From the NCBI GenBank assembly GCA_007693835.1, contig RECW01000136.1, forward strand, positions 1-55,563: a DNA stretch of 55,563 nt, in the 5' to 3' direction. This DNA comes from Paracoccaceae bacterium. Its GTDB lineage: Bacteria; Pseudomonadota; Alphaproteobacteria; Rhodobacterales; Rhodobacteraceae. Position numbers and translations under genes: made by a program. This document shows positions 40,456-42,891 of the stretch, one piece after another. The notes beneath the pieces were generated by a model. The model saw nothing but the letters and a program-made list of their open reading frames with translations, was not told the DNA's origin and made no database searches. How positions within the stretch are numbered: position 1 is the first letter of the stretch; each line of letters opens with the position of its first letter.

Positions 40456-41103
40456 TCAGACGGACGGGACGGCGACCCCGATCATGCAGTCGCGGGTGAC
40501 GATCCCGGCGAGACGTTCCTCGTCCCACCCCGCAGCGGCGTCCGGACGCCGCGGAACGACCAGATACCGCATGTCGGCCGTGCTGTCATGCACACGCACC
40601 GTCGTCGTCCCGGGGACAGTGAGCCCGAACTCCGCGAGCACCCTGCGCGGCTCGCGCACGGTGCGGGAGCGGTAGGCGCGGCTCTTGTACCAGTCCGGCG
40701 GCAGACCGAGCAGGTTGCGCGGGTAGCACGAGCAGAGGGTGCAGACGACGACGTTGTGCTCGGCCTCGGTGTTCTCGACCGCGACGAGCTTCAGCGCATC
40801 GACCTCGATCCCCATCTCGCGACAGGCGGCCGAGCCGTCGGCGAGCAGCCGCGCCTTGAACGCCGGGTCGGTCCAGGCGCGCGCCACGACCTGCGCGCCG
40901 AGCGCCGGCGTGCGCGCGTCCATCCGCGCGATCTGCGCGGCGATCTCGGCGGCCGTGGCGACGCCCTTCTCGACCAGCAGTTCGCGCACTGCGATCTCGA
41001 GCCGTTGCGCCTCGGTCAGCGGCGCGTCCTGATCGGCGCGACAGGGATGGCTAGAGGGGCCGAGCCCGCGGTGGTCGTGATCGTGGTGATGGTCATGGGG
41101 CAT
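40456..41103 (-). CDS. nitrile hydratase alpha-type / thiocyanate hydrolase gamma-type subunit, Co-type metal motif
   Basis: NVVVCTLCSCYPRNLLGLPPDWYKSRAYRSRTVREPRRVLAEFGL; His-rich N-terminus MPHDHHHDHDH; 215 aa. Confidence 0.88.
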   Translation of the reverse strand: MPHDHHHDHDHRGLGPSSHPCRADQDAPLTEAQRLEIAVRELLVEKGVATAAEIAAQIARMDARTPALGAQVVARAWTDPAFKARLLADGSAACREMGIEVDALKLVAVENTEAEHNVVVCTLCSCYPRNLLGLPPDWYKSRAYRSRTVREPRRVLAEFGLTVPGTTTVRVHDSTADMRYLVVPRRPDAAAGWDEERLAGIVTRDCMIGVAVPSV

Positions 41104-41440
41104 CGCCCGGCTCCAGCCAGTGCTCGAAGATCTCGGCGTCGATGGTGTCGCCGTCGCCGTCGCCCCAGAGGTCGGCGAGCGCGAAGCGCACGCGGTAGAG
41201 CGGCAGCACCGGTTCGCCGTCGCGGCGGTAGGCGAGCTCCTCGGGGTTCGCGAAATGACCGCAGACGCGCTCGACGCGACCCGTGCGCCCGCGCAGATAC
41301 CACGGCGTGCGCATGTGGCCCGGCGCGGCCCCGCGCTTCACCCGAACCACGGCGCCGGGCGCGAACCGCGGCGCGGCGGCCCCGGGGGCGAGGTAGGGCG
41401 GGTCGAAGGCGCGCGGCGCGACCGCCGGCGGCTCACCCAT
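41093..41440 (-). CDS. nitrile hydratase beta C-terminal (SH3-like) domain as a separate subunit (thiocyanate hydrolase alpha-like)
   Basis: FAPGAVVRVKRGAAPGHMRTPWYLRGRTGRVERVCGHFANPEELAY..LYRVRFALADLWGDGDGDTIDAEIFEHWLEP; ATG at 41440 overlapping the upstream stop by 8 nt. Confidence 0.82.
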   Translation of the reverse strand: MGEPPAVAPRAFDPPYLAPGAAAPRFAPGAVVRVKRGAAPGHMRTPWYLRGRTGRVERVCGHFANPEELAYRRDGEPVLPLYRVRFALADLWGDGDGDTIDAEIFEHWLEPGDAP

Positions 41441-41792
41441 GCCCGCCCTCCAGCGACGCCTCGCCGTAGGTCGCGCCGCGGGCGGCGACCTCCTCAATCT
41501 TCGTGTTGAGTTCGGCCACCGTGAACGCCCCGGCTTCGAGCAGGTTCTGCGTGATCGCGGCGATCCAGCGCTCGTAGTAGGTCATGGTCTCGAAGGCGTC
41601 CTCACCCATGTCCTCGAGCGCGCGCCGCAGCCCGTCGACGGTGAAGAGTCCCTTCGCCGAACACAGCACCATCAGCGCGTCGACCCGCTTCTCCCAAAGC
41701 GCGAAGTCGTGCTCCTCCGGGCTCACCGGCCCGCCGGGGCGTCCGCCCATGTCGTGCCAGCGCCGGCCGGTTTCTTCCGCATCGTTCGTCAT
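41433..41792 (-). CDS. nitrile hydratase beta N-terminal helical domain as a separate subunit (thiocyanate hydrolase beta-like)
   Basis: WHDMGGRPGGPVSPEEHDFALWEKRVDALMVLCSAKGLFTVDGLRRALEDMGEDAFETMTYYERWIAAITQNLLEAGAFTVAELNTKIEEV. Confidence 0.82.
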   Translation of the reverse strand: MTNDAEETGRRWHDMGGRPGGPVSPEEHDFALWEKRVDALMVLCSAKGLFTVDGLRRALEDMGEDAFETMTYYERWIAAITQNLLEAGAFTVAELNTKIEEVAARGATYGEASLEGGHG

Positions 41793-41911: not shown

Positions 41912-42331
41912 ATGCGAAAAATCACCATGGCGGCGGCCGCCGCGCTGCTCGCGGGCGCAGCCGTCGCCGAACTGACCCCAGCCCCGGAGGGCGCGCAGAC
42001 CTACATCGTGTCGCCGGCCGACGGCGCGACCGTGTCCAACCCCGTCACCATCGTGTTCGGCGCGCGCAGCATCGGGATCGCGCCGGCGGGCGTGGAGTGG
42101 GAGCGGACGGGCCACCATCACCTGCTGATCAACACCACGGTCGACGCCGTCCCGCTCGACGAGTCGCTGCCCGCGACCGACCAGATCCGTCACTTCGGCG
42201 GCGGCCAGACCGAGGTGACGCTGGAGCTGCCGCCGGGCACGCACACCCTGCAACTGCTGATGGGCGACCACGACCACATCCCCCACGATCCGCCGATCTA
42301 CTCGACGCCGATCACCATCACCGTCGAATGA
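41912..42331 (+). CDS. DUF4399 domain-containing exported protein, copy 1
   Basis: TYIVSPADGATVSNPVTIVFGARSIGIAPAG...GHHHLLINTTV..IRHFGGGQTEVTLELPPGTHTLQLLMGDHDHIPHDPPIYSTPITITVE. Confidence 0.9.
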   Translation: MRKITMAAAAALLAGAAVAELTPAPEGAQTYIVSPADGATVSNPVTIVFGARSIGIAPAGVEWERTGHHHLLINTTVDAVPLDESLPATDQIRHFGGGQTEVTLELPPGTHTLQLLMGDHDHIPHDPPIYSTPITITVE

Positions 42332-42426: not shown

Positions 42427-42891
42427 ATGATCCGTTCGTTCCTCGCCGCCGCGGCGATCCTCGCCGCCGGCCCGCTGTCCGCTCAGTCGATGCGCGCCGC
42501 CGAAGGCCGCCCCGCCTACGACGTCGGCATCCCCGAGCCGAGCCAGCCGACCGTCTTCTTCGCCAACATCAAGGACGGCGCGACCGTCACCAGCCCCGTC
42601 GCCCTCGAATTCGGCTCCCTGGCGATCATGATCGGGGCGATCGGCGATTTCGAGGACTACTTCAGCGGCCACCACCACCTGCTGATCGACGTGACGGCCG
42701 ACGACCTCGACCTGACGCAGCCGATCCCGGCGACGGAGAACATCATCCACTTCGGCGGCGGAGAGCGGCGCGCGGTGCTCGGGCTGCTGCCGGGAACCTA
42801 CACGCTGCAGCTGCTCGCCGGCGACGACAACCATGTGCCCCACGATCCGCCGGTGATGTCGGCGCCGATCACGATCACCGTGGTCGAGTAA
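42427..42891 (+). CDS. DUF4399 domain-containing exported protein, copy 2
   Basis: VFFANIKDGATVTSPVALEFGSLAIMIGAIG...GHHHLLIDV..IIHFGGGERRAVLGLLPGTYTLQLLAGDDNHVPHDPPVMSAPITITVVE. Confidence 0.9.
   Translation: MIRSFLAAAAILAAGPLSAQSMRAAEGRPAYDVGIPEPSQPTVFFANIKDGATVTSPVALEFGSLAIMIGAIGDFEDYFSGHHHLLIDVTADDLDLTQPIPATENIIHFGGGERRAVLGLLPGTYTLQLLAGDDNHVPHDPPVMSAPITITVVE

Follow-up and report, generated by a model that had tools for sequence, protein, structure and literature searches.

Three-subunit enzymes of the nitrile hydratase superfamily have been characterised in few cases, namely toyocamycin nitrile hydratase, the enzyme of Streptomyces canus and thiocyanate hydrolase (SCNase). Toyocamycin nitrile hydratase has an (αβγ)2 structure, with subunits of 21.2, 10 and 11.4 kDa (PMC8574189), and ToyJ alone was reported to be sufficient for maturation (Nelp 2014, in the form cited by PMC7329996). 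AnhD-AnhE-AnhA of S. canus CGMCC 13662 is a cobalt enzyme, which has been purified and hydrates acetamiprid, thiacloprid and benzonitrile (PMC7329996). Cobalt enters AnhA without an activator, and AnhD, equivalent to the N-terminal half of the β subunit (βN), is the metal and swapping chaperone (PMC7329996).

The locus presented here is found in the window, that is, the whole stretch of DNA analysed (55,563 nucleotides; contig RECW01000136.1 of a Paracoccaceae bacterium, order Rhodobacterales). It encodes βN, the C-terminal half of the β subunit (βC) and the metal-binding α subunit, in this order. The closest characterised match in design is the actinobacterial AnhD-AnhE-AnhA, likened here by its description (PMC7329996), which also has the βN-βC-α order, three polypeptides, a Co-type site and no activator gene. 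ToyJKL of Streptomyces rimosus likewise replaces the usual two subunits by three (PMC12648386, PMC8574189), but it sits in an antibiotic cluster and has a known nucleoside substrate, whereas the window locus lies in ordinary chromosomal surroundings. ScnB-ScnA-ScnC of Thiobacillus thioparus (PDB 2dd4) shares the three polypeptides, the metal-subunit motif CTLCSCYPR and a His-rich N-terminal tail; in contrast to it, the window locus has no βArg90, all three of its subunits are shorter, and its α is placed outside the SCNase clade and scores less than the TIGR03887 cut-off. Two-subunit Co-type nitrile hydratases (NHases; Pseudomonas putida 3qxe, Pseudonocardia thermophila 1ire, the latter PtNHase) share the fold, CTLCSC, both β arginines and YYxxW, but have a fused β, a Trp at the position of α Arg129 and a separate activator gene.

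With split β genes upstream of α, no activator and CTLCSC, the locus belongs with the TNHase/ScNHase kind, and it illustrates well a design that is known but little studied. We interpret it as the operon of a three-subunit, non-corrin-cobalt nitrile hydratase of an already described kind (probability about 0.78).

Gene organization and genomic context

A preliminary description had listed three overlapping minus-strand ORFs of 119, 115 and 215 aa, the last with CTLCSC. The open frames and the Pfam domains bear this out:

41433..41792, minus strand: βN, N-terminal half of the nitrile hydratase β subunit, 119 aa; PF21006 (NHase_beta_N), E 1.8e-21
41093..41440, minus strand: βC, SH3-like C-terminal half of the β subunit, 115 aa from the ATG at 41440; PF02211 (NHase_beta_C), E 1e-21
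40456..41103, minus strand: α, metal-binding subunit, 215 aa, Co-type; PF02979 (NHase_alpha), E 9.8e-79
40726..40743, minus strand: CTLCSC cobalt site, α residues 121-126 (from sequence)
40717..40719, minus strand: α Arg129, equivalent of SCNase γArg136 and PtNHase αTrp116 (from motif alignment and PDB mutants)
41433..41440, minus strand: 8-nt βN/βC overlap ATGGGTGA, with the βC start just ahead of the βN stop (from sequence)
41093..41103, minus strand: 11-nt βC/α overlap, with the α start inside the βC end (from sequence)

The three E-values exclude chance domain matches. The overlap of stop and start codons at the βN/βC junction is an ordinary coupled one, with GGAGGG ahead of the βC start, and suggests translational coupling. 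Because start/stop overlaps are present at both junctions, βN, βC and α are almost certainly co-translated.

βN carries HDMGG at residues 13-17, YYERW and the catalytic-type Arg56. It resembles AnhD of S. canus and SCNase β, and its sequence matches in the PDB were 3qxe_B and 2dd4_B. Additional PDB matches of βN to TAL effectors were discarded as helical-repeat noise, with no stretch passing by itself. βC resembles AnhE of S. canus and SCNase α, and matched 2dpp_B, 1ire_B and 2dd4_A. For α, too, the PDB sequence matches were nitrile hydratase and SCNase chains. The N-terminal tail of α is His-rich (MPHDHHHDHDH). The genome (95.9% complete) has only one α and one βN; no activator gene was found in the operon, and no second βN-like protein in the genome.

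Many genomes of the order carry the operon between FliG-like and purB genes and the genes for a lipid A acyltransferase, DUF1223 and aconitase. On the latter side, the window has EamA, MATE-like (assigned by eye), lipid A acyltransferase and DUF1223 genes. From this conserved chromosomal synteny, the locus looks vertically inherited, not mobile. No amidase gene adjoins the operon, which counts against the nitrile hydratase reading; about 10 amidase-signature matches were found elsewhere in the genome, and these amidases could take the amide further. A search of the genome for the cobalt transporter CbtA found none, and NicO gave a partial match only. Divergent from the operon, two tandem DUF4399 proteins are encoded on the plus strand (41912-42331 and 42427-42891 of the window).

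Phylogeny of the α subunit

The relatives followed two main architectures: α-fused β-βN-like accessory gene, and βN-βC-α without the accessory gene, to which the window belongs. The non-redundant set comprised 108 α subunits, 58 of them labelled split and 47 fused. An activator paralogue was adjacent in 45 of the 47 fused-β loci, and absent from the βN-βC-α loci. The residue following the CSCYP part of the motif is Arg in every split α, L055 excluded, and in none of the 47 fused-β α subunits (39 Trp, 4 Phe, 2 His, 1 Leu and 1 with a different motif). Judged from the sequences, the split layout marks a lineage, with the βN-βC-α order coinciding with CYPR and no adjacent activator. CYPR in place of CYPW in α, together with activator loss, offers a simple lineage marker.

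A long branch set off the fused lineage in a tree of 110 α rows. In a 42-row tree, to which plasmid and SCNase rows were added, all split, SCNase and βN-α fusion rows were found on one side (support 100/98). SCNase (T. thioparus and two plasmid scnC) formed one long-branched clade on the Arg side (100/100), with the window outside of it, and the window α was placed within a 12-row clade (96/83). An annotated three-gene locus from a Streptomyces plasmid (L149) was on the window's side of the tree. Constraining all split rows to one clade, with SCNase and the fusions left out, gave a p of 0.07, short of a firm rejection. The identity of the window α was 77% to Limibaculum and Neomegalonema, 59% to the Streptomyces three-gene α and 47% to SCNase γ. 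A phylogeny of the CTLCSC subunit against SCNase γ and fused-β NHases had been suggested in the preliminary description, and here it separated both groups from the window clade. Within the three-gene lineage, SCNase appears to be a single derived branch that has gained a further arginine in the β pocket.

The His-rich α tail was considered as a substitute for the activator, and rejected. It first seemed exclusive to the split type, but fused-β α subunits also often start with MPHDHH. At least 3 His in a fixed 30-aa N-terminal segment were present in 29 of the 47 fused-β α subunits, versus 56 of the 58 split ones, and the median number of His in the tail was 3 versus 5.5. Because only the length of the tail differs between the two types, it was not used as evidence.

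Catalytic residues, structural models and proposed mechanism

All residues of CTLCSC (6/6) are invariant in 14 relatives. Both catalytic β arginines of the superfamily (PtNHase βArg52 and βArg157) are present in the window proteins: βN Arg56 aligns with βArg52, and βC Arg44 (codon 41311-41309) corresponds to βArg157, with residues 22-107 in register with 136-219 of 9d65_B. At the position of α Arg129, SCNase and nitrile hydratase have each been given the residue of the other, in PDB entries 3vyg (titled 'Thiocyanate hydrolase mutant R136W') and, reciprocally, 3vyh ('aW116R mutant of nitrile hydratase'), whose sequences show the substitutions; the position is therefore a recognised one in the pocket. 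The genes, domains, gene order, catalytic residues, phylogeny and lack of a βN-type activator were all observed directly. As a separate observation, one relative (L079) has the cobalt motif RTLCSC, with the first Cys replaced by Arg, in a three-gene locus that is otherwise intact.

AlphaFold models were of single chains. The α model (pLDDT 85) had NHase α and SCNase γ as its sole strong structural matches, with an rmsd of 1.9 Å over 199 columns to SCNase γ (2dd4_C) and of 2.8 Å to PtNHase (1ire_A). For the βN model (pLDDT 69.9), the top Foldseek matches were all NHase β or SCNase β, and weak (E no better than 8e-3).

For assembly, cysteine oxidation and activity, we infer the following. By homology, βN and βC would together take the place of the fused β subunit, forming an (αβγ)2-type enzyme with α. 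Co(III) would be held by α Cys121, Cys124 and Cys126 and by two backbone amides, with Cys124 and Cys126 in their oxidised forms, sulfinate and sulfenate, kept in place by βN Arg56 and βC Arg44. On binding to the cobalt, a nitrile would be attacked by the sulfenate and leave as the amide. Because there is no activator in the operon and no second βN-like protein in the genome, maturation probably relies either on βN, acting as a metal and swapping chaperone in the way shown for AnhD, or on α alone, as reported for ToyJ. By analogy with AnhD, βN is likely the chaperone of the window enzyme.

Substrate

The substrate is most likely an organic nitrile, with thiocyanate less probable. Against the nitrile hydratase reading are listed the TIGR01323 score of α (248.1 bits, 1.75 below the cut-off of 249.85), the positive pocket residue α Arg129, and the α model, which is a little closer to SCNase γ than to PtNHase α.

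A narrower version of the nitrile hydratase explanation is that the enzyme takes a small nitrile that is charged or special in some other way (for example a cyano-acid or a host metabolite nitrile) as a housekeeping enzyme of the order, with the Arg selecting for a negative group. The pocket Arg is invariant across the whole three-gene lineage, and the synteny in many genomes (FliG; lipid A acyltransferase, DUF1223, aconitase) is not that of a mobile catabolic island. However, neutral nitriles are hydrated by a three-subunit enzyme of identical layout (PMC7329996), and as a clue to the substrate the neighbouring genes gave conserved chromosomal synteny only, with no substrate-specific gene found among them. 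We consider this version unlikely. Only tentatively, and with the odds against it, can it be proposed that the βN-βC-α enzymes of the order, with their pocket Arg and often in one chromosomal place, make up a functional class of their own, with a housekeeping substrate other than thiocyanate and other than the xenobiotic nitriles so far assayed.

Further down in probability is a thiocyanate hydrolase, whose positive pocket would take SCN- and release carbonyl sulfide and ammonia. SCNase genes are ordered scnB-scnA-scnC, and the window locus has the same order. Furthermore, α Arg129 is the equivalent of γArg136, SCNase is on the window's side of the tree, and the α model fits SCNase γ at 1.9 Å. 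In 2013, Yamanaka et al. reportedly attributed the selectivity of SCNase mainly to two arginine residues, the second of which we take to be βArg90. This residue lies directly before the catalytic-type Arg91 of SCNase β, whereas the window βN has Leu55-Arg56, and no other aligned βN-βC-α locus has Arg at this position. Arg is found there in T. thioparus and in the Roseomonas and Azospirillum scn loci, and both plasmid scn loci keep RRR. The T. thioparus SCNase subunit sequences used were verified against the chains of PDB 2dd4.

The window α reached 205.5 bits with TIGR03887, 86 bits short of the cut-off of 291.45, while the positive control, Roseomonas scnC, passed it at 359.2 bits. The separate long-branched clade of SCNase also argues against a thiocyanate hydrolase, and so does the lower α identity to SCNase (47%) than to the Streptomyces three-subunit type (59%). 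Cobalt or sulfur genes were not found beside the window locus, whereas scnC loci have CbtA/CbtB, HupE/UreJ or TauE/SafE. Although it would work like the superfamily, the window protein is not filed as SCNase because of its TIGR03887 score, Leu55 and the identities. It is unlikely to be a true thiocyanate hydrolase, and thiocyanate as substrate is possible but disfavoured. The preliminary description had left the choice between a thiocyanate hydrolase relative and a three-subunit NHase; the relation to both stands, the three-subunit NHase is favoured, and a strict SCNase is disfavoured by TIGR03887, the clade and βArg90. In the two plasmid scnC loci, the β halves are fused (283 aa), near CbtA/CbtB or HupE/UreJ and TauE/SafE (L146, 2568-4217; L147, 4036-5678).

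The β split and its distribution

That a frameshift or assembly error broke an ordinary fused β gene has a negligible probability: the two β ORFs do overlap in different frames near 41433-41440, but they do so as a normal coupled start/stop overlap with GGAGGG before the βC start, and ~56 distinct relatives likewise encode the β halves separately and in this order. These include Limibaculum, Neomegalonema, a betaproteobacterium, Streptomyces and Planktothrix, and they rule out an artefact. The preliminary description had named a frameshift at this junction, or relatives with uniformly fused β genes, as objections to the split; neither was encountered, and the split is genuine.

A βC search of 296 genomes of the order gave matches at E <= 1e-17 in ~57 genomes, roughly a fifth, and every locus fetched among these matches proved to be split. 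The three-polypeptide layout was correctly recognised in the preliminary description, but it is less unusual than implied there: the layout is widespread in the order, and the S. canus enzyme had already been purified (PMC7329996). The collected relatives show that the design is common in this alphaproteobacterial order, and the role of the enzyme in ordinary marine and soil bacteria is now testable in culturable genera.

The β split arose more than once, as seen from L055 (473-2103, minus strand), an independent split with the order α-βN-βC-accessory, a broken β and a Trp-type α motif. A second split clade (L036, L066, L130, L138 and L139) has CTLCSCYPRSILGQ, and both split types were found together in two genomes (L129/L130 and L090/L139). 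In two other loci (L026, 1480-2718, minus strand; L029, 991-2076, plus strand), βN is fused ahead of α in one polypeptide with CYPR, with no βC within reach. A genome with such a βN-α fusion also encodes βN and βC separately, on another contig (L165), where the beginning of an α gene comes next. The three-gene layout is also present on plasmids of Streptomyces and Planktothrix, and in Azospirillum brasilense an unannotated plasmid carries βC, α and βN as separate ORFs, in another gene order. The Planktothrix plasmid locus (L148, 250-4606) directly follows asnB, apparently in a biosynthetic cluster.
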